This document shows positions 154-36,907 of a stretch of 64,000 bases of DNA, piece by piece. Both the position numbers and the translations under genes were made by a program. Origin of the DNA: a virus; the IMG/VR virus record IMGVR_UViG_3300024255_000006, positions 1 through 64,000 of that record; one strand, given 5' to 3'. The stretch's first letter is position 1; each line of letters starts with the position of its first letter. The notes beneath the pieces were generated by a model that searched no databases, was not told where the DNA came from, and saw nothing but the letters and a program-made list of their open reading frames with translations.

Positions 154-372
154 ATGAATGTAAAAACTAACGATTGGTTCACTTGTACTTCAAAGGAACC
201 ATATGATAGGCATCATTACCGATTGAATTTTTCAGATGGTTCCTATAGAATTTTCGAGTCTTGGGATCTAGTTCAAGCAGAATGGTACCAAAGACTTCCA
301 ACATCACTATCACATATAGATGTGTTGGACATTAAACAAAACACGAAAAAAACAAGTGGAGGATTTAAATAG
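154..372 (+). CDS. hypothetical protein between psbA and psbD
   Basis: I do not recognise this 72-aa protein. It is rich in Trp, Tyr and His ([16 protein letters not shown]) and could be a small beta-rich fold. I chose ATG 154; a TTG at 142 in the same frame would add four residues. Its TAG overlaps the psbD GTG start by one base, so it is translationally coupled to psbD, and the psbD ribosome binding site (GGAGG, 359-363) lies inside it. A photosystem-related role is only a guess from position. Confidence 0.6.
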
Positions 373-1427
373 TGGTAGCATCAACTTTACAACAACAAAG
401 GAGGGGATGGTTTGATATCCTTGATGACTGGCTTAAACGTGATCGCTTTGTCTTTGTGGGCTGGTCTGGACTTCTTCTTCTTCCCACTGCTTATCTTGCA
501 ATTGGTGGCTGGATTACAGGCACGACGTTTGTTACGTCTTGGTACACCCACGGACTTGCAAGTTCGTACCTCGAAGGTGCTAATTTCCTTACAGCAGCTG
601 TGTCAACGCCTGCTGACGCTATGGGTCATTCTCTTCTTCTACTTTGGGGTCCTGAGGCTCAGGGAGATTTCGTCCGCTGGTGCCAACTTGGGGGACTCTG
701 GGCTTTTGTGGCTCTCCACGGTGCCTTCGCCCTCATTGGTTTCATGCTTCGTCAATTCGAGTTGGCTAGGTTAATTGGAATTCGTCCGTACAATGCTATT
801 GCGTTCTCTGGGCCTATCGCTGTTTTTGTCAGTGTGTTTCTCATCTATCCTCTCGGACAGTCCAGTTGGTTCTTTGCACCGTCGTTTGGTGTGTCTGCGA
901 TATTCCGCTTTCTACTCTTCCTACAGGGTTTCCATAACTGGACGCTCAACCCTTTCCATATGATGGGGGTTGCTGGTATCCTAGGTGGAGCATTGTTATC
1001 TGCTATTCATGGCGTAACTGTGGAGAATACTCTCTATGAAGATGGGGATCAAGCAAATACCTTTAAGGCTTTTGACTCTACGCAAGAGGAGGAGACTTAC
1101 TCGATGGTTACTGCGAACCGTTTCTGGTCACAGATCTTCGGTATTGCTTTTAGTAATAAGCGTTGGTTGCATTTCTTTATGCTCTTCGTTCCCGTCATGG
1201 GTCTCTGGACAAGTTCTATCGGTATTATTGGACTCGCTCTTAATCTTCGTGCTTACGACTTTGTATCTCAAGAGATTCGTGCAGCAGAAGACCCTGAGTT
1301 TGAGACTTTCTATACAAAAAACATTCTTCTGAATGAAGGACTCCGTGCATGGTTAGCACCAGTTGATCAACCACATGAAAACTTCATCTTCCCAGAAGAA
1401 GTTCTACCTAGAGGTAACGCACTGTGA
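372..1427 (+). CDS. psbD: photosystem II D2 protein
   Basis: This is full-length D2, 351 residues, as in hosts. D2 binds half of the P680 chlorophylls, Tyr-D and plastoquinone QA in the thylakoid membrane. Visible landmarks, numbered here one less than in plants: Tyr159 (Tyr-D), His196 in HMMGVAG (P680 ligand), His213 in [10 protein letters not shown] and His267 (non-haem iron ligands). The conserved C-terminus ends [10 protein letters not shown]. The start is GTG, behind a GGAGG site. The intact length and residues indicate a functional protein. With psbA upstream it forms the usual cyanophage photosystem II repair pair. Confidence 0.98.
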
Positions 1428-24217: not shown

Positions 24218-24731
24218 AGATTGTCTGGAAGGACGTTTTAGTAATAAGTATCAAGCGATGAAGCAACCTACTAGGTATGCACACATCAACATCGCACACA
24301 TTAGACTAGGTGATCACTTGTTTTATGGTGAGCAAGCATATGATTACAATCCTAGGCAACCATATCGTCAGTTCATTCTAAAAATACTCCCCATTGGGGA
24401 TGACTACATAGTACAGAACTACGAAGTTCAGGATCCTGAACAGCACGTTGGTTGTAAGAATATAGATATTCTTCGCGAAAAACCCTTGCAAAGACGACTG
24501 GGTTGTGATATACTTTTTAAGGCGGACAGCGAGATGTACAAAGGTTCTCTCGCAGGCAAAGAATGCACAGTTCAGTGGAGAGGTAAGAAGACTTATCTCA
24601 AGAACCAAATTGAACTTGGTGATGATTATTACTGGGTTCTAGATCAGGGATTCGACTGTGAAACCGATCGACAAGTTTGGGGAAGTGAGTGGGGATTCTT
24701 GAAATTCTACCGAGAACGTGGTATACTTTGA
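24204..24731 (+). CDS. cpeT: CpeT-type phycobiliprotein chromophore lyase
   Basis: 175 aa. The CpeT/CpcT family pattern is clear: EGRFSNKYQAM, HIRLGDHLFYGEQAYDYN, PYRQFILKI, Cys-Asp-Ile-Leu-Phe, a GSLAGKECTVQWRGKKTYL block and GFDCETDRQVWGSEWGF. Such lyases attach or chaperone bilins on phycoerythrin or phycocyanin. Phage copies may adjust the host antenna; their exact activity differs from host enzymes and is not settled. It suggests a phycoerythrin-bearing host. Confidence 0.93.
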   Translation: MKAFEDCLEGRFSNKYQAMKQPTRYAHINIAHIRLGDHLFYGEQAYDYNPRQPYRQFILKILPIGDDYIVQNYEVQDPEQHVGCKNIDILREKPLQRRLGCDILFKADSEMYKGSLAGKECTVQWRGKKTYLKNQIELGDDYYWVLDQGFDCETDRQVWGSEWGFLKFYRERGIL

Positions 24732-24749
24732 AAGTAGTCCTGATGGATG

Positions 24750-25018
24750 ACTCTAAAAGCCATGTAGGTGACGCCATCGACATTTCGGACAGGAGTTCGA
24801 TTCTCCTCGCTTCCACTCATGGGGGCGCACTGGTTTCGACGGGGTACACGGAGCGTGACTGAAACCTGCTTGGATAAGCAACCAATAGATGCAAAAACAT
24901 CTGATGTCGCTGCGAACAACATCGTAGCATTCTCCCGCAGCACCGTTGCTGCCTGAATGGGAGATCGGGGTTAGACTAGCCTTGTTACCCAAATAGTCCT
25001 CTGGGGGTGTAACGCCCC
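24750..25018 (+). ncRNA. ssrA: circularly permuted (two-piece) tmRNA
   Basis: The acceptor piece comes first: T-arm AGGAG-TTCGATT-CTCCT (24791-24807), 3' acceptor strand CGCTTCC and discriminator A (24808-24815). After 5 nt the coding piece begins GGGGGCG (24821-24827), pairing with that strand over 7 bp, including the G3-U70 wobble needed for alanine charging. TGGTTTCGACGGGG is the tmRNA 5' signature. The tag frame (24912-24956) reads ANNIVAFSRSTVAA then TGA, close to marine cyanobacterial tags. P2 helix candidates: ACCTGC/GTAGGT and GCGT/ACGC. It rescues stalled ribosomes. The outer ends are approximate. Confidence 0.88.
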
Positions 25019-25025
25019 CTCCTAC

Positions 25026-25097
25026 GCCCCTGTAGCTCAGTGGTAGAGCAGGGCTTTTGTAAAGCTCAGGTCGTCTGTTCAAATCAGATCGGGGGCT
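25026..25097 (+). tRNA. tRNA-Thr (TGT)
   Basis: Acceptor GCCCCTG/CGGGGGC, D-arm, anticodon stem GGGCT/AGCTC with loop TTTGTAA (anticodon TGT), T-loop TTCAAAT. 72 nt; CCA not encoded. Directly follows the tmRNA. Confidence 0.95.
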
Positions 25098-25100
25098 TGT

Positions 25101-25173
25101 GGGGAATTAGCTCAGATGGTAGAGCGCCTGCTTTGCAAGCAGGATGTCAGGAGTTCGAGTCTCCTATTCTCCA
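25101..25173 (+). tRNA. tRNA-Ala (TGC)
   Basis: Acceptor GGGGAAT/ATTCTCC, anticodon stem CCTGC/GCAGG with loop TTTGCAA (anticodon TGC), T-loop TTCGAGT. 73 nt; CCA not encoded. Confidence 0.95.
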
Positions 25174-25178
25174 CTCGA

Positions 25179-25251
25179 TCCTCTATAGCTCAGTTGGTAG
25201 AGCACGGAACTGTTAATTCTGTTGTCCCTGGTTCGAGTCCAGGTGGAGGAG
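25179..25251 (+). tRNA. tRNA-Asn (GTT)
   Basis: Acceptor TCCTCTA/TGGAGGA, anticodon loop CTGTTAA (anticodon GTT) on stem CGGAA/TTCTG, T-loop TTCGAGT. 73 nt; CCA not encoded. The next gene starts 3 nt later. Confidence 0.95.
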
Positions 25252-27103: not shown

Positions 27104-30100
27104 ATGCCGCTAACTAGACTAGATAACCTGATTTCCAGTAAGACAGGTCGTTATCTTTATGTATCTCCTGATGACTTCAATGCTAGTGATGAACTAGACA
27201 ATAGAGGTAACTCTCCAAATCGTCCATTCAAGACAATTCAGAGAGCATTTGTTGAGGTAGCACGTTACTCGTACCTGCCTGGTATCGATAACGATAGATT
27301 CGATGAGTTCACCATCATGCTGATGCCTGGTGATCACTACATCGACAACCGTCCTGGTCCAGCGAATAATTCGACAACACCAGTATTCAGTTTTGACCAG
27401 TCAAACAATGCTTGGACAGATTCTTCTCTCCTAGATCTATCCAATCCTAACAACGTTCTCTATCAGTTTAACGGCACTGAAGGTGGTTGTGTAGTTCCTC
27501 GTGGTTGTTCACTGATTGGTTACGACCTTCGTCGTACAATCATTCGTCCTCTATATGTTCCTGATCCTGCAGATACAGAGCAGGCAAGAACATCGATGTT
27601 CAATGTAACTGGTGGCGCATACATCTGGCAGTTCACAATCAAGGATGGAGATCTCACTACCAAGTCTCCTCTGTATGATTCAAACAATGGTGTTGGTAAG
27701 GTCTACTATCGCAAAGATGATACTGCTAACCTAGCAATTCCTGAGTTCTCTCACCACAAGATCACTGTATTTGAGTATGCTCAAAAGACTGAACTTGAGA
27801 TTTATTATGAGAAGATTGCTAAAGCATTTGCTGAGTATCAACCAACAATTGATGATGCAAATGAGTTTGGTGCAAAGATTCAAGAGACCAGAATTGTTGG
27901 TCCTTTGTCTGACCTTAGAACAATTGATTCGATCAGAGTTACGGATTCCTCACCAGCAGGAACTGTTACTGTTCAGGTAACGACCAAGATCGCTCATGGT
28001 TATATTGTAGGACAGTACGTTGCTATTCAAGAGAATGGTCTAGATGATGCACTGAATGGTACGTTTGACGTTACTGCTCTCGACACCACTAACCGTAGAG
28101 TCTTTGAGTTTGAATTAACAGGAACTGTTGCTGGTCTGGGTCTACAAAATAACCAGACATATACCACAGGCAATGGTCTATCGACTAATGCATATGTTCA
28201 GGCAGAGGTTGACTCTGTTGAGTCTGCATCTCCTTACATGTTTAACCTGTCGATTCGTTCGACTTGGGGTATTTGTGGTCTGTGGGCAAATGGTGCGAAA
28301 GCATCTGGATTTAAGTCCATGGTTTGCGCTCAGTACACGGGTGTTTCGTTGCAGAAAGACGACAGAGCATTCATTCGTTATGATAGATTCACTAACACAT
28401 GGAACCAGGCATCGCTAAGTGATGCTTTCGCAACCACACCTTATCACACTAAAGGTGATGCATATTGGAAGGATGACTGGAGAAACTTCCACATCCGTGC
28501 ATCGAATGACTCATTTGTTCAGTGTGTTTCGATCTTCGCTGTTGGTTTTGCTGATCACTTCCTGATGGAGTCAGGTGGTGACATGTCTATCACCAACTCA
28601 AACTCTAACTTCGGTAACACATCACTTCATGCTATCGGACATAAGGGTTACTCCTTTAATCAGGATAAGGGTGGATACATTTCAGATATTATTCCACCAG
28701 AAAGACTAATCGAATCTTCTGCGAACGAAGAAGAAGTCGATTACTATACTTGGGATGTTCAAGCATCTCGTGGTACAAATACCAAACTATATTTTGCAGG
28801 AACAGGAATCGCTGATCCTAAGAAGCGTCCTGCTGCTACTATTAATGGGTATAGAATTGGTGCAAAATCAAATGATAAGATCTATGTTGAACTAGATCCT
28901 TACGCGACAGGTTCTGGTAGAACTACACCAACTGATTCTGTCTTCAATGCAACTCTGAAACCATCAGGTTTCATTTCATATCCATCTTCAATTCAGATCC
29001 TCAACCCCACTACGGTGGTTGTTGATAACAAGAACCAAGATTCTGCTAACAGAATTGAAGATAACAAAGAACTGATTGCAGGAGAAGCATATGGATACAT
29101 CACTACAAAGTATCCTGCACTTTTAAACAAGAACATTATTATCACTAAGTGTAAGAGAGATATTGGATATCTTCTCGATGCTATCATTAGTGACTTGAGA
29201 CTTGGTGGTAACATCAATAGTGTTCAAGCTGCTGAGTCATACTTTAGTGGTGGAACACTTAACTATATTGATGGTGAGAAGTTTGAAACCATTGAAGGTT
29301 TTGAATATGCTCGTGACCTAGCAATCGCATCAATGCGTAACTGGGACTTCCTACAAACAGGATGTACAGTTACTAATGGTTCTGCATATGTTACTGTTCC
29401 ATCTACTGTCGGTCTATTCATCGGCATGAAGGTTGAGGAATACACTGTAGTCAACTCTAACAACACAACTGTTGATACTAACAGTCTGACTACATCAAAC
29501 ATTCCTGCTAATACTTACATCAGAAACGTTGTTAACTCAACAACTATCGAACTCGGTAGTGTTGTAAATGGTGTGAGAGCATATTTGGCTAATGGTCAAG
29601 CAGTTAATGCGGTTGGAACCAATAGCAATGCGAAAATTTTCTTCAAGTTAGAAGATGATAATGGCGACCGTAAGGGTATTTGGTCAAGCGAAGAAGGTAC
29701 AGTAGATACAACCATCACTCAAGATACTGTTTATCCTGAGTGTGCTACTGCTGCATCTGCAATTCAATCTTTGTTTGGTCAGATTAAGACCATCCTTAAT
29801 AATGGTATTAGTCCTGTTGGTGATCGTTTTGCTGACGCACATGATCTGTTGCTTTCTAACAAGAACTGGATTGCTGATGTAGCAGTCAAGGACATGCAGA
29901 TTCAGTTCCCTACATTCCAAGTTCCTGGTGGTGCTGTTAATTGTTTTGACGATGTTGTAGATGTTGTTGAAGCAATCGCATATAACGTCAAGTATGGTTC
30001 AAACAACCAAGTATATGATGCTGCTAATTTCTATGTTGTAGGTGCTCACGTTTCTGGTGAAGAAGAGCAGTCTGTATATGTCTTCGATATTGCTAAGGCA

Positions 30101-33100
30101 ATGGCGGAGAAAGTAATCCAGAACGTTACTTATACTCCTCGCGCTGGTGTAACCACAACTTACTCTCAGATCAAAGATCTAACTATCACTGTTGATCCTG
30201 CTCCTGTTGGTGGTAACTATTGTGCTGATGTTATCTCTGCACAGAATACTCTATTCGATATCATCGAAGCAGGTATTGATAATGCTGGTACTGTTAACAA
30301 TGCAAACGCTGGTGTATTTGCTGCTCTAACTAAGACTTCTCCACAGCAGACAGTAGTTTCTCGTCAGAATCCATCAACAGATACATCACAGTTTGCTAAC
30401 CGTGCAACACTATTCACTGTTAATGCTGGTGGTACTAATCCTCACAAATTTGAAACTGGAACCCCAATTCGTTTGGTTGCTAGAGAAAAATCAGGAACAA
30501 CTCCCGATGAAAGAGACGTTCGTCTACCAGTTGGATTTGAACCAAACAGAACTTACTTTGTAATTGCTCCTGGTAGAGATACTCAACCATTCAACTACAA
30601 CCAAGCAAGTGTTTACAGTGGTATCTTTGATGGTGGCGATCAGACCAAACTGATGCTCGCTAACACCAAAGAGAATGCTGCAGCAGGTATCTACATTTAC
30701 TCACCTGAAACTGAGGCGATTGATGATGATGTTGAGATCTTAGTTCAACAGTATGTTTTAGATGAAACATATAATCTTCACGAGTATCGTGTTACTTTCG
30801 ATGGTAGCAGCGGTACAGTATTGAAGACGGATGTTGCACATATCTTCGACAAACCAACAACAGGACTGGGTGCAGATTATATCCAGAAGATATTCTTCAG
30901 AGCAGAAGGTTCTGATGGTCAGGTAGGAACTCTACCCACACTATCGGGTATTGGTGGTACACAAATCTCTAATACTCGCGAGTATTTTGTACGCTACAAT
31001 AGCGATGATACCTTTAAGATCTTTGCTACGGCACAGGATGCAATTACTGGTGCGCCAGAAGTAACACTAGTCAACAGTACGACTCAGTTCTGGTATGTCT
31101 TCGCTAACAAGCGTGTATCTCCAATGAGATTCGACCCAACGTTTGTTGATACAAGTGCATCTAGAACACCTGCAATTACTGATGGTCTCTGGTATCTAAA
31201 TCTCAAAGATGAGACCACTAATGATGATAACATTCTAGGAAGATTTAGTGAGACTGACTATGATTCTGCATCTGGTCAGGTTCAGACAACTGACTCCTAC
31301 TATACACGTCTTGAAGATAATCGTGATAAAGATGATAGAATCTATCGTTTGCGTTATGTCCAACCAAAAGACTTTCCTGGTGCTGTAAGAAAACCAAACA
31401 ACGGTTTTGTTATCAAGATTCGTACTGATACGAAGAGAAATCTTCTACCTCAGAGAATCGTACTTGAACCTATTGGTGGTGCTCCTGCATTAGCAGAGTT
31501 CCGCAACCCAGATACAACCAATGCCGCTGAGGTTATTGGTATGTCTGTAAGTCAGTTTGATTCTGCAGTTCAGGCTGGTACTTTAGATAAGGACAATATC
31601 TATGATCCAGATAACAATCCAGTTGTTGTTAACACAGATAACTTCCTACGTTTCAGCGTCCGTTCTGCTAGAACGGTCACTATTAACTCTCAACCACTGC
31701 TAGAAGTTACCGCGTTTGATCATACTGTTGATGATACAAATGCACCACAACTTAAGAACACAGTCTTCCATACTGTAGAGATCAATGCACCTCAAGCAGG
31801 TACATTTACTGTAAGTAAGACAGCATCTACAGTATCAAATAGAGTTGAGTGGACTGGTGGATCCAGTGGTTTTGGTTACATTCATGCTTACTTTAACGTC
31901 GGTGCTAAGCATTACATCATTCTGAAAGATGTTAGTGCTCGTCCAACATATGATCCACTGGTCAACACAAGATTTGATCAAAATGGTGTCTATGCGGATC
32001 AACAGGCAGATGTAAATAGTGGTAGAGATCTAACTTCTAAGTACCTCTATGTTGTACAGGGTGCTAATGTATTCACTCTAACTCCTGGTGATACAGTAGA
32101 TGACTCTGTTGGTAATACGTATAAGGTTCTTTCTGTTGAAGATGAGAATGATATCGATGATACTTTCTACATCTTTGATGCTGAAGAAATTCAAGAGCGT
32201 GTATCTGGTCAGCAAAATGGTATTTACTATCTAACTGCTGTTCGTGGTAACATCACTCCACTACCTCGTGGTGCTGGTGTTGCTAACAACTTCCAGAACT
32301 TTAAGTTCTCTCAGCCTATTTCCTCACTGTATCCTCTAGACTATAAGAACGATCCAACTTGGTATCAGGTTATCGACAATGATGGTACTAAGGACACTCT
32401 AATCAAGGATCCACAGGCATCTAGTTCTTTCGCTAATAACTATACTCACGGTCTAGTTTACGTCAACGACTACAAGCGTTCGATGACGAAAGAAGCAGTT
32501 GTTGATCTAACTGAAAGTGCATACTTTGAAGATTACACCTACACTAGTGCTAACTCAATTGCTGCACAAGATGGTAATGCAACATCTGGTTCTGAGCAAA
32601 GAAAGATTCCTATTGCTGGTGATACTGCATCTGTTCATGATCAGAAGGTTTATGTTGAACTTAGAAGACCATCTATTGCTAGATCTGGTAACCATACATT
32701 TGAATATCTTGGTTTCGGTCCTGGTAACTACTCCACAGGTCTCCCAGCACGTCAGGAAGTCATTCTAACTGAGTTCCAAGACTACTATGCTCAAGCGAAG
32801 CGCCAAGACGGTGGTATCGTCTTCTACACGGGTCTAAACTCTAACGGTGACCTCTATATTGGTAACCGTAAGATTGACGCCATTACAGGCGAAGAGGAGT
32901 TCCTTGAGAGAGCAGTTCTAACAGCATCTGAAGATGATTCTGATCCTATCGAGTCACTGGTTACATCATTTGATACTCCAGTTACATTTAAGGATAAGAT
33001 TACTGTTGAAGGTATTTCTTACCTCAACAACAGAGTCATCATCAATACTCAACCACCTGCAGAATCACCAGCACTGGTCATTCAATCAAACCCAAGAAAT

Positions 33101-36100
33101 GATGGTGGTAACGAGGATAATACTTTAACAAGAGGTAGCTTCGCTAACCGAAGTGACGGCGACATTACTATTGATCGCAATAAAATTTCCGCGGCTATTT
33201 TTGAGACAAAAGGTCGCGGTACAGTTTCCTTCCCTGGACAAACATATAGTCAGAGAACTCACTATTCATACTCTGAGCAGATCCCAACCAACAGAACTCC
33301 TGATCAAAGTTCGACATTCTCATCTGATCAGTTTGTAAGATATTATCAATCTACAGATGTAGATGCGAATCCACAACCAGGAGATATGCTGCTGAAGGGC
33401 AATTCTGTCCAGAATTCAGGTTCTCTCGGATGGGTTTATTCAAACTATTATCAAGAAATTCCTGCTGGTAGTATTCTTGATCTTGTAACTAACGGTTCTT
33501 CGACTGTTAGAATCAACTGGAGTGGTGTTCTAACGAACGCAGACACTAGCATTAAGATGAGTGTTGGTAAGACAATCCGTATTCAAGGATTCTCTCAATC
33601 ATTGATTAACGGTCTATGGACAGTTACAAGAGCAGATCAGACAGGTGCTGATAATGACTTTATTGAATTTATTGTTGCTAATGCGATCACTGGTCAAACT
33701 TACAACTGGGATCCAGCAAGTCAACCAACCGCAGTTCTAGAGCGTTCTGAAGAATCGTGGAAAGAATTTGGTGTTCTCGGTTCTGAAGCACTTAGAACTG
33801 ATACTGATGCTATCGGTGAGTATAAGTTGGGTGTTAACACACTTGCTCGTACTGCACATGCTGCACATGAATTTGGATTCTTAACATATTCTGCTGGTGG
33901 AACAACATATGATCAGCAAGAACCAAGAGCAAACTTAGATGTTGTTGGTAATGCATTTATTAGCGGTAGAACAATCAGCAATGCTCAGTACATGGCTGGT
34001 ACTGGAACCGCGAAGGTTGAGTCAAACGTTCATGAAGCATTCTTGGTTGGTGGTAACTCTGCTTCACCACAATCTACAGCACTGTTTAGAGTTGATACAA
34101 CCAACAATCGTATTGGTATTAACCTATCCAGAAGTGATCTAAGTGATACTCTAACAATCAATGGTACACTTAAACTACTTGGCCCATCATCTAATGTAGA
34201 TATTGATGGTGATCTCAATGTTGATGGTGGAGACATCACAACTAACGTTGCTACATTCAATCTACTGAATGATAATGCACTTACAATCAATGCATTTGGT
34301 GATGCTACTACACTCACCATTGCTGATGATGCAACATCAGATCAAACTATCAATATCGGTACATCTGCTGCAGGACTTGGTACTCTCAATATTCATACCA
34401 GTCTAGACAGATCGGTTATTAACATTGGTACAACACCAAATAATAATCCTACATCAACGTCTGTTATTACAATTGGTGGTGGATTCCAGAATACTGCTAA
34501 TTCCACACTGACTGTTAAGAATGCTCAGACAATTCTTGATGGTGATCTAGATGTTAATGGTGGTGATATTCAGTCCAATTCTTCTACCATTAATCTCTTT
34601 ACGAGATCTGGATTTGGTAACATCGTCAACTTTGCAACGAGAGCGTCACAGTTCACCATTGGTGGTGTTGCTGGATCAACAACAATTAGAAACTCTCTGA
34701 TTGTTAACGGCGACACAGACATGATGGGTGATGTCACCATGAATGGTGGATCAAACAGCGGTACTGTTACTGTTACTAGAGCATCACTGAATACTGCAAA
34801 GATTACTCACACTGCTGGTTCACTTTCAAATCTGAATGTTGACTTCTATGAGTTCATCGCTGATATTGATGGTGCTGAAATTCTTACTAGTGTAAATGGT
34901 AGCAATGGTCAAATCGCTGTTGCAGATAACTATTTCCTCGATGGTAATACAGTTAGATTCAGTGATACTACTGGTCTTTCTAACAATGTAAACACCACTA
35001 CAACATATTTTGTCGTTAATAGTTCTGCTGCTAATGGAACACTTCAAATTGCTGCTACTGAAGGTGGTACTCCTATTGTTTTCTCTGGTACTCCTGGTAC
35101 TTCAACTGGCATCACACTTCAGAACACGTTGGTTGATACTGGATCAGGCACTAACGCTTGGACTGGTAATTCTTCTGATGCTGAGTATACTAGACTTCCT
35201 GTTAATAACGTTGAGGGTATTGAGATCGGTGATATTCTAATCATCGGTAGTGAACTGGTTGAGGTTATCTCTCCTGGTCCAGATTCTAATACTAGAATCG
35301 TTCCTGTTAATAGAGGTGTTGACTGTACAACTATTCCAACCAATACAGCAGACAACACAGTTATCAACAAACTTGCTAAGTCTCCTGGTGCAACATATAC
35401 TGTTGGTAGAGTTCCACAGAACTCATCAACTCCTACAGTATCTAATCTAAATGCAGTTGCAGATACACTTGAAGTTCCCATTGGCGCACTACAAGAAGGT
35501 GATGCAGTCTCCTTCAGTTCAATCGGAAGCATTCAAGGTGCTATCGTACAAGGTCCAACATACTTTGTAGCGAATGTTATTAATGATACTGCTAATAGCG
35601 TCACTAGATTTAACCTAGCAGGTGATCCTGGTGGTGGTGCTTTAGATATCACTGGTGGATCTACAACTGGTGCAGTTCTTAACTTCAGTGATACTCTGAT
35701 TGCTCTTGCTGAGTTTGGTGGTCAGATTAAGGTTGGTGACTACTTGAGAATCAGTCCAAGTACCACTTGCCCATCAGGTGAATTTGTAGAGGTTATCAAT
35801 GTTAACACTACAAACGCTGAGAAGTTTACTGTTAATAACGGTGCAAATCAGGATAGATTCGTAATTGATTCTGTCTTTGGTGGTGTTAATTCAACTATTC
35901 TTGGTGAGCAAGACTTCAGCATTAACCTCACTGCTGTTGCATCAACTAATGCAGATGATAACAAGTTCAGAGTTGTTAATGGAACTGGTCTCAGTCCAGC
36001 AGAGAGATTTACAATTAATTCTGCTGGTACTGTTGACTTTGTTGGTGATGGAACCACGGCAGATCCTAATGCTAGACTCAAGTCTGATGGTATGTTCTGG

Positions 36101-36907
36101 TTGTCTAATGACTTCAGAGTTACCAATGGAAATGGTTCTAACATTGATAGTGATGTTAATGACCTATCTCTATTATTTGATAGCAGTGATGGTGACCTAG
36201 ATGTTCAGGGTCATATCAGACTTGGTGATAATCTCTCTGTATTCAAAGACCATGGTACTGGTGTTGGATTTAGTGGCGCTGATCGTGTCTTCCATGTTGC
36301 AAATGCCGATGGTGATACAATAATTGGTGAAACTGGTGGTGCATATGGTGCAGGTGATCTAACTGTTAACGGTGGTCACCTCCAATTGGTTGGTGCATCA
36401 ACTACAACTCCAAGTAGTACTGATTATCCACTAAGCATCACAAACATGGGTGTAAGTGGTAATAGAAACTATAGAATCCGTCGTGATGCTGCTATTGATG
36501 CATTTGGTGTTACTCAGTTCTATAACAAGAACGGTGGTCGTAGATGGGATTACATCAACGCCGACACAACACTTGAAACTGGTAAGAACTACATCGTCGC
36601 AGTTTCTGCAGATATGGTTCTAACTTTACCATCTAATGCAGAGACAGGTGATATGATTAGATTCATCGAAGTTACTGGTTCAATCTCATATGCACAATCT
36701 ATAATTCTTCGTGCTCCAAACGGTGGTTCTATTCAAGGTGATAACCAAGGTACAAACGCTGGTGGTCTTCCCTCCGCTTATCAAGGTGGTGAGTTGATCG
36801 TCCAAACTAGAAATGCTGGTTTTGGACTAGTCTATATGGGATCACAAGATGGTGGTGGTCAGTCAATCCCGACTACATATAGGGGATGGTGGTTAACTGA
36901 AATTTGA
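27104..36907 (+). CDS. giant virion protein (3267 aa), probable fibre/baseplate
   Basis: The N-terminus (LISSKTGRYLYVSPDDFNAS…NRPFKTIQRAFVEVARYSY) resembles pectate-lyase-like phage fibre proteins that begin a parallel beta-helix. Long Asn/Asp/Thr/Gly-rich beta repeats fill the rest; residues about 2280-2560 have regular fibre-like repeats (DLNVDGGDI, DLDVNGGDI, TINIGT). The C-terminal part ends near an intact fibre tip (GWWLTEI). It is a late gene, directly before three tail-collar genes. Probably a host-contacting fibre or baseplate periphery protein; the exact T4 equivalent is not clear. Confidence 0.75.
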   Translation: MPLTRLDNLISSKTGRYLYVSPDDFNASDELDNRGNSPNRPFKTIQRAFVEVARYSYLPGIDNDRFDEFTIMLMPGDHYIDNRPGPANNSTTPVFSFDQSNNAWTDSSLLDLSNPNNVLYQFNGTEGGCVVPRGCSLIGYDLRRTIIRPLYVPDPADTEQARTSMFNVTGGAYIWQFTIKDGDLTTKSPLYDSNNGVGKVYYRKDDTANLAIPEFSHHKITVFEYAQKTELEIYYEKIAKAFAEYQPTIDDANEFGAKIQETRIVGPLSDLRTIDSIRVTDSSPAGTVTVQVTTKIAHGYIVGQYVAIQENGLDDALNGTFDVTALDTTNRRVFEFELTGTVAGLGLQNNQTYTTGNGLSTNAYVQAEVDSVESASPYMFNLSIRSTWGICGLWANGAKASGFKSMVCAQYTGVSLQKDDRAFIRYDRFTNTWNQASLSDAFATTPYHTKGDAYWKDDWRNFHIRASNDSFVQCVSIFAVGFADHFLMESGGDMSITNSNSNFGNTSLHAIGHKGYSFNQDKGGYISDIIPPERLIESSANEEEVDYYTWDVQASRGTNTKLYFAGTGIADPKKRPAATINGYRIGAKSNDKIYVELDPYATGSGRTTPTDSVFNATLKPSGFISYPSSIQILNPTTVVVDNKNQDSANRIEDNKELIAGEAYGYITTKYPALLNKNIIITKCKRDIGYLLDAIISDLRLGGNINSVQAAESYFSGGTLNYIDGEKFETIEGFEYARDLAIASMRNWDFLQTGCTVTNGSAYVTVPSTVGLFIGMKVEEYTVVNSNNTTVDTNSLTTSNIPANTYIRNVVNSTTIELGSVVNGVRAYLANGQAVNAVGTNSNAKIFFKLEDDNGDRKGIWSSEEGTVDTTITQDTVYPECATAASAIQSLFGQIKTILNNGISPVGDRFADAHDLLLSNKNWIADVAVKDMQIQFPTFQVPGGAVNCFDDVVDVVEAIAYNVKYGSNNQVYDAANFYVVGAHVSGEEEQSVYVFDIAKAMAEKVIQNVTYTPRAGVTTTYSQIKDLTITVDPAPVGGNYCADVISAQNTLFDIIEAGIDNAGTVNNANAGVFAALTKTSPQQTVVSRQNPSTDTSQFANRATLFTVNAGGTNPHKFETGTPIRLVAREKSGTTPDERDVRLPVGFEPNRTYFVIAPGRDTQPFNYNQASVYSGIFDGGDQTKLMLANTKENAAAGIYIYSPETEAIDDDVEILVQQYVLDETYNLHEYRVTFDGSSGTVLKTDVAHIFDKPTTGLGADYIQKIFFRAEGSDGQVGTLPTLSGIGGTQISNTREYFVRYNSDDTFKIFATAQDAITGAPEVTLVNSTTQFWYVFANKRVSPMRFDPTFVDTSASRTPAITDGLWYLNLKDETTNDDNILGRFSETDYDSASGQVQTTDSYYTRLEDNRDKDDRIYRLRYVQPKDFPGAVRKPNNGFVIKIRTDTKRNLLPQRIVLEPIGGAPALAEFRNPDTTNAAEVIGMSVSQFDSAVQAGTLDKDNIYDPDNNPVVVNTDNFLRFSVRSARTVTINSQPLLEVTAFDHTVDDTNAPQLKNTVFHTVEINAPQAGTFTVSKTASTVSNRVEWTGGSSGFGYIHAYFNVGAKHYIILKDVSARPTYDPLVNTRFDQNGVYADQQADVNSGRDLTSKYLYVVQGANVFTLTPGDTVDDSVGNTYKVLSVEDENDIDDTFYIFDAEEIQERVSGQQNGIYYLTAVRGNITPLPRGAGVANNFQNFKFSQPISSLYPLDYKNDPTWYQVIDNDGTKDTLIKDPQASSSFANNYTHGLVYVNDYKRSMTKEAVVDLTESAYFEDYTYTSANSIAAQDGNATSGSEQRKIPIAGDTASVHDQKVYVELRRPSIARSGNHTFEYLGFGPGNYSTGLPARQEVILTEFQDYYAQAKRQDGGIVFYTGLNSNGDLYIGNRKIDAITGEEEFLERAVLTASEDDSDPIESLVTSFDTPVTFKDKITVEGISYLNNRVIINTQPPAESPALVIQSNPRNDGGNEDNTLTRGSFANRSDGDITIDRNKISAAIFETKGRGTVSFPGQTYSQRTHYSYSEQIPTNRTPDQSSTFSSDQFVRYYQSTDVDANPQPGDMLLKGNSVQNSGSLGWVYSNYYQEIPAGSILDLVTNGSSTVRINWSGVLTNADTSIKMSVGKTIRIQGFSQSLINGLWTVTRADQTGADNDFIEFIVANAITGQTYNWDPASQPTAVLERSEESWKEFGVLGSEALRTDTDAIGEYKLGVNTLARTAHAAHEFGFLTYSAGGTTYDQQEPRANLDVVGNAFISGRTISNAQYMAGTGTAKVESNVHEAFLVGGNSASPQSTALFRVDTTNNRIGINLSRSDLSDTLTINGTLKLLGPSSNVDIDGDLNVDGGDITTNVATFNLLNDNALTINAFGDATTLTIADDATSDQTINIGTSAAGLGTLNIHTSLDRSVINIGTTPNNNPTSTSVITIGGGFQNTANSTLTVKNAQTILDGDLDVNGGDIQSNSSTINLFTRSGFGNIVNFATRASQFTIGGVAGSTTIRNSLIVNGDTDMMGDVTMNGGSNSGTVTVTRASLNTAKITHTAGSLSNLNVDFYEFIADIDGAEILTSVNGSNGQIAVADNYFLDGNTVRFSDTTGLSNNVNTTTTYFVVNSSAANGTLQIAATEGGTPIVFSGTPGTSTGITLQNTLVDTGSGTNAWTGNSSDAEYTRLPVNNVEGIEIGDILIIGSELVEVISPGPDSNTRIVPVNRGVDCTTIPTNTADNTVINKLAKSPGATYTVGRVPQNSSTPTVSNLNAVADTLEVPIGALQEGDAVSFSSIGSIQGAIVQGPTYFVANVINDTANSVTRFNLAGDPGGGALDITGGSTTGAVLNFSDTLIALAEFGGQIKVGDYLRISPSTTCPSGEFVEVINVNTTNAEKFTVNNGANQDRFVIDSVFGGVNSTILGEQDFSINLTAVASTNADDNKFRVVNGTGLSPAERFTINSAGTVDFVGDGTTADPNARLKSDGMFWLSNDFRVTNGNGSNIDSDVNDLSLLFDSSDGDLDVQGHIRLGDNLSVFKDHGTGVGFSGADRVFHVANADGDTIIGETGGAYGAGDLTVNGGHLQLVGASTTTPSSTDYPLSITNMGVSGNRNYRIRRDAAIDAFGVTQFYNKNGGRRWDYINADTTLETGKNYIVAVSADMVLTLPSNAETGDMIRFIEVTGSISYAQSIILRAPNGGSIQGDNQGTNAGGLPSAYQGGELIVQTRNAGFGLVYMGSQDGGGQSIPTTYRGWWLTEI

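Follow-up and report, generated by a model that had tools for sequence, protein, structure and literature searches.

The stretch of DNA analysed here (hereafter the window, 64,000 nucleotides) opens a viral record of 135,242 bases that encodes T4-like baseplate and tail proteins, PhoH, a CpeT-like protein and a photosystem reaction-centre protein, and its source is a T4-like cyanophage, infecting ocean cyanobacteria. The reaction-centre protein, the usual photosynthesis gene of cyanophages, is encoded at window positions 372-1427 (Photo_RC, 245 bits). Further along lies a circularly permuted tmRNA gene of the cyanobacterial type (Table 1). Rfam's cyano_tmRNA model RF01851 matched it over the full model (positions 1-288) with 135.3 bits, above a cut-off of 70 (E 1.4e-36), the tmRNA_permuted model RF04321 matched 24767-24956 (88.8 bits, E 1e-15), and ARAGORN independently called a permuted tmRNA (tmRNA*). 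Chance resemblance is ruled out by an E-value of 1e-36. Together with the relatives described below, the two covariance models and ARAGORN confirm what a sequence-only reading of the window had reported, a virus-borne permuted cyanobacterial-type tmRNA, and leave only its tag to be corrected.

Table 1 Features of the tmRNA locus in the window
Feature	Position	Strand	Details and basis
Sigma-70-like promoter TTGAAA-17-TATACT, TG before second hexamer	24699-24727	+	10/12 matches
Circularly permuted (two-piece) cyanobacterial-type tmRNA gene	24735-25018	+	RF01851, ARAGORN, same RNA in isolates
3' (acceptor) piece	24735-24815	+	Encoded upstream of 5' half
T-arm	24791-24807	+	5 bp, loop TTCGATT
Acceptor 3' strand CGCTTCC	24808-24814	+	
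Discriminator A (A73)	24815	+	
Intervening spacer CTCAT	24816-24820	+	5 nt
5' (mRNA-like) piece	24821-25018	+	
Acceptor 5' strand GGGGGCG	24821-24827	+	
Hairpin AGATG-CAAAAA-CATCT around probable resume codon	24887-24902	+	Covarying stem
Probable tag frame from GCA, AKTSDVAANNIVAFSRSTVAA	24891-24956	+	ARAGORN; A at -4; stop TGA at 24954-24956
Hairpin GCAGC-ACCGTT-GCTGC in last tag codons, enclosed by TCTCCC/GGGAGA	24937-24952	+	Sequence
tRNA-Thr(TGT), tRNA-Ala(TGC), tRNA-Asn(GTT)	25026-25251	+	ARAGORN and Rfam; directly 3' of tmRNA

The structural details given in that reading, namely the 7-bp acceptor pairing, G3-U70, the discriminator A and the 5-nt spacer, each proved correct on the sequence. 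All seven acceptor pairs form, a second G-U at 4-69 among them, and with G3-U70, A73 and its T-arm the RNA has the elements of alanine identity; the CCA end is not encoded. The promoter sits within the end of the cpeT-like gene and finishes 8 bases before the RF01851 match, and the same site recurs in the nearest relative (L157) with 11/12 matches. More broadly, at least 10 promoter matches were found within 83 nt upstream in 23 of 95 distinct phage tmRNAs, compared with about one in shuffled sequences. The three downstream tRNAs probably share one transcript with the tmRNA. An Rfam search of the window found no glutamine riboswitch. Positions 27104-36907 hold an open frame of 3267 aa with zero Pfam matches; in phages Sf-FS3 and S-SSM7 the equivalent position 3' of the tmRNA is occupied by genes for a peptidase S74 protein and a fiber protein.

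Two in-frame codons compete as the start of the tag. The sequence-only reading had chosen GCG at 24912, which yields the 14-residue tag ANNIVAFSRSTVAA, and had described the tag as shorter than that of the host. This start has C at -4 and is probably wrong, whereas GCA at 24891 has A at -4 (ATAGAT before GCA) and probably opens a tag of 21 residues, against 16 in the host. Because of this upstream start, the whole tag is probably longer, and the description holds for the C-terminal part alone (RSTVAA versus RQAAPVAA). In hosts the resume codon follows GTAAC(A/T) or a similar sequence, with A at -4 in all 90 genes of the unbiased sample described below, and an in-frame GCN with A at -4 was present in 96/96 distinct phage genes tested. 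In phages of the window's type, the codon at the position of GCG usually has C or another base at -4, and a GCA, GCC or GCT lies 6 or 7 codons upstream, in frame; it follows a sequence such as ATAGAT or ACAGAT and has A at -4. The inserted stretch, 6 or 7 codons in most of these phages, keeps the frame and is free of stops; its versions include ANNIDTA-ANNIVAF and AKNIEA-ANKIVRF, and it resembles the host A-N-N-I-V module repeated in tandem. The hairpin around the probable resume codon occurs with three compensating stem types (AGATG/CATCT, ATCTG/CAGAT and GACG/CGTC; 17 distinct relatives). The window's tag ends VAA and thus carries the Ala-Ala degron.

BLAST recovered the same gene in Sf-FS3 (92% identity over 89% of the query), S-CAM1, S-CAM3, S-SSM7, S-SSM6a and AG-345-P14, and Rfam confirmed a tmRNA in Sf-FS3, S-CAM1, S-CAM3, S-SSM7, S-CBWM1 and AG-345-P14. 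None of the GenBank cyanophage records examined marks the tmRNA; hypothetical proteins are placed over all or part of it, for instance at L005 3034-3252 (SSSM7_025), L001 3253-3462 (SfFS3_24) and L002 2974-3099. The annotation is hereby corrected for a gene that is unmarked in these records and covered by spurious proteins in several. To one side of this subject, S-CAM1 carries a wcaG RNA motif upstream of a tRNA-Gly (L002 and L009, 5566-5662).

We scanned viral and genome collections with sequence patterns and read the hits with a single parser, which yielded 144 complete genes from phages (100 distinct) and 114 from hosts (100 distinct). The patterns demanded the TTCGA loop, the TTCGAC motif and an A-N-N-I-V stretch, and parsing demanded at least 6 acceptor pairs, so decayed copies would have escaped and some of the conservation was built in by the method; the C-terminus of the tag was left unconstrained. 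Since the first host pattern fixed part of the 3' half, which partly imposed the acceptor uniformity seen there, we added an unbiased host sample: a covariance-model search of the host family found tmRNA genes in 171 of 201 genomes, of which 90, deliberately chosen from the lower-scoring end, were parsed.

The scans also brought up several variants. Twelve of the 100 distinct phage tmRNAs, scattered over several regions of the tree, have their halves separated by an intact gene for tRNA-Asn or tRNA-Tyr, with spacers of 81-90 nt (loci L485, L487, L488, L495, L498, L546, L548, L555, L557, L565, L566, L567 and L569); such a nested tRNA has been called a unique feature of one nominally archaeal sequence (PMC11915505). 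Three cyanophage tmRNAs (L140, L145 and L150), with tags ending VAV or QTV, have a post-tag sequence unlike the usual 3' domain. Many non-cyanobacterial permuted tmRNAs lie on viral contigs (L174, L181, L205, L228, L239 and others); they mostly show an apparent encoded CCA and about 4 further nucleotides between the halves, and their tags mostly end AA.

Across the phage copies the tRNA-like part is well preserved. A 7-bp acceptor stem, G3-U70 and A73 are present in 100/100 distinct copies, which is partly conditioned by the parsing, and they are built from eleven strand combinations, against two in the 90 unbiased hosts; the median spacer is 6 nt in phages and 12 nt in hosts. The collected copies thus appear free of simple decay, insofar as the collection patterns did not condition this. 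That the gene is a functionless passenger of the phage tRNA cluster, or a remnant of integration, is therefore highly improbable in our estimate: it does sit in such a cluster, and these clusters are mobile, but acceptor changes are compensated and frames intact across about 100 distinct copies, the gene is complete rather than an att-site fragment, and T4-like phages do not normally integrate.

SmpB (PF01668) had no match in the 135-kb record, itself possibly a fragment, nor in the five isolate genomes that carry relatives, so the phage tmRNA, if working, must use host SmpB, which Synechococcus host WH7803 does encode. The window's RNA is a tmRNA all the same, with a partner that would have to be the host's. 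Sharing SmpB would also suit an RNA that soaks up the protein and stops the host's own trans-translation, a role suggested for the tag-less tmRNA of mycobacteriophage DS6A (PMC4131195, PMC11915505), and some relatives are without a recognisable 3' domain. An inhibitor, however, needs neither tag frame, resume context nor stop, and all three are kept in every complete copy collected; we regard this explanation as very unlikely.

The ends of the tags set phages apart from their hosts. Host tags end VAA in 100/100 distinct genes of the pattern sample and in 89/90 of the unbiased sample, the exception being VLA (in total 203 of 204 parsed genes, though the two sets may overlap). The 100 distinct phage tags end in VAA (26), ATA (17), ALV (16), VAV (12), VTA (10), ATV (6) or, for the remainder, SLV, QTV, VSV, TLV, FLV, SCA and VPA, so that the Ala-Ala degron end is absent from 74 of them (Fisher P 1e-32 for VAA frequency against hosts, a value that ignores relatedness). 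Among isolates, S-CAM1 and S-CAM3 end in STVAA, Sf-FS3 in RELATA, S-SSM7 in DELVTA and S-CBWM1 in VSCA. Among other permuted viral tmRNAs an AA end is the usual one: of 38 distinct tags that were parsed, 29 have it, and the parse is doubtful for several of the others.

With the tag left out of the trees, switches between AA and non-AA ends number at least 13 or 14, and changes of the last two residues 26 or 27; the trees have some 119 columns and few supported forks, so these numbers of independent changes are rough. Direct comparison of pairs offers stronger support for an exchange of tag ends. The 3' halves of loci L494 and L535 (47 bases) are identical and their 5' halves agree at 83 of 84 bases, yet the tags end RTRTLATA and RSTVAA, respectively. 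The window and its near-twin Sf-FS3 differ by the same exchange on another backbone (RSTVAA to RTRELATA).

This pattern has to be weighed against a plainer account, in which the phage gene is a full functional duplicate of the host tmRNA that only adds rescue capacity, and differences at the tag end are neutral because tagged proteins are irrelevant in a dying cell. We consider this a serious contender, if somewhat short of probable. The window keeps VAA, the rescue domain is conserved and relaxed selection would also yield many endings. The endings are nonetheless non-random: the final residue is A or V in 100/100 distinct phage tags, and STVAA and TRxLATA recur on different backbones, which together argue for some constraint, or for recombination. 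RNA structure could also drive the changes, as part of the tag end forms an RNA hairpin.

What a changed ending would mean for the tagged protein can be gauged from the ClpXP system. For E. coli ClpXP the terminal Ala-Ala is the most important element of the tag and makes the main contact with ClpX; substitution of either alanine raises KM but leaves Vmax almost unaffected (PMC7652416), and AAV and ASV ends are degraded more slowly than LAA (PMC9097571). Tag variants of differing strength also exist in Synechocystis, according to a review (PMC3766872). The TRDV, RKH and GYVG loops of the E. coli protein (residues from PMC7652416) recur unchanged in ClpX of host WH7803. Given these three lines, the role of Ala-Ala, the slower AAV and ASV ends and the conserved loops, phage tags with non-AA ends should be weaker degrons in these hosts.

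The same considerations make it unlikely that the phage tmRNA serves to tag host proteins for destruction and so to recycle amino acids, a role among those put forward in PMC9004378. The VAA end of the window's tag would fit, as would the host-type promoter, which suggests early expression; against it, most relatives are without the Ala-Ala end that ClpX needs most, and tmRNA tags the products of stalled ribosomes rather than finished host proteins.

Taken together, the DNA presents the gene, its two halves and their pairing, the identity elements, an open tag and a resume-codon context, without a recognisable SmpB in the record. We think it likely that the gene specifies a functional two-piece tmRNA, permuted as in cyanobacteria, and belongs to a cyanophage tmRNA lineage in which the rescue part is kept and the degron end either evolves freely or is selected off Ala-Ala. 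The gene would be transcribed, probably from the host-type sigma-70 promoter together with the phage tRNAs; host tRNA-processing enzymes would cut the precursor at the spacer and remove it; the RNA would be charged with alanine and, with host SmpB, would release ribosomes stalled on broken mRNA during infection. Many relatives would then attach a tag less readily recognised by host ClpXP. The window's own phage keeps VAA, and its tmRNA is most simply read as one that rescues ribosomes and marks proteins for degradation in the normal way, with a longer tag. Across the phages, it appears likely that the RNA works in rescue and that selection on its proteolysis signal differs from that in hosts. 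Control of ribosome rescue or of tagging during infection, as the sequence-only reading had suggested, may follow, and altered tagging becomes more plausible because phage tag ends turn over.

A stronger version can be offered only tentatively, and we lean against it at present: the lineage may uncouple rescue from proteolysis, keeping the rescue domain and repeatedly swapping the degron end for ends that ClpXP reads poorly, perhaps sparing tagged phage proteins or the host's protease load. If so, the two jobs of trans-translation would be separated in nature, and this could be tested with natural alleles such as STVAA and TRELATA on near-identical backbones. The finding bears on the question of why phages carry tmRNA at all.

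Every one of the window's nearest relatives is a phage sequence. A branch separates phages from hosts, supported at 100 with one host sample and at only 46 with the unbiased sample, and in view of this drop we do not claim a single origin. An ancient cyanobacterial origin is likely; a recent capture from a sampled host is unsupported, so that the earlier suggestion of capture from the host stands in its ancient form only. Similarly, phage tmRNAs had been called uncommon, and they are still a rarity, albeit a known one: permuted tmRNAs of marine phages had been surveyed before, and 144 complete genes of the cyanobacterial type were collected here. In that survey (Buchholz et al. 2022, PMC9004378), 402 of 18,146 phage genomes screened carried a tmRNA; two-piece forms made up 53 of 133 unique structures, and 50 of these came from marine or aquatic phages. 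With two-piece marine-phage tmRNAs thus already published, the basic finding is a further case of a known kind. What goes beyond it is the lineage-wide turnover of phage tag ends against the near-constant host VAA, of which we found no published report in a literature search whose reach excluded most subscription journals.

Among known systems, the closest is the two-piece tmRNA of cyanobacteria (RF01851; ssrA of marine Synechococcus and Prochlorococcus), with which the window's gene shares the permuted order, the T-arm, the 7-bp acceptor with G3-U70, A73, the tag core A-N-N-I-V-x-F-S-R and the VAA end. It differs in an N-terminal extension of 7 codons resembling a second A-N-N-I module, in the resume-codon hairpin, in having RSTVAA where the host has RQAAPVAA, in a spacer shorter than in most hosts and in its RF01851 score (135 bits, against about 285-330 in the listed hosts). 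The two-piece tmRNAs of PMC9004378 are likewise permuted and come from marine myophages, and AG-345-P14 is our relative L004; the accessible part of that study covers presence and phylogeny, whereas tag endings, tag duplication and tRNAs between the halves are reported here. The tmRNAs of mycobacteriophages and Bacillus phage G (PMC4131195) are phage-borne like the window's, in non-cyanobacterial hosts, and that of mycobacteriophage DS6A has little beyond the tRNA-like part and is tag-less, unlike the window's copy with its complete tag (PMC4131195).
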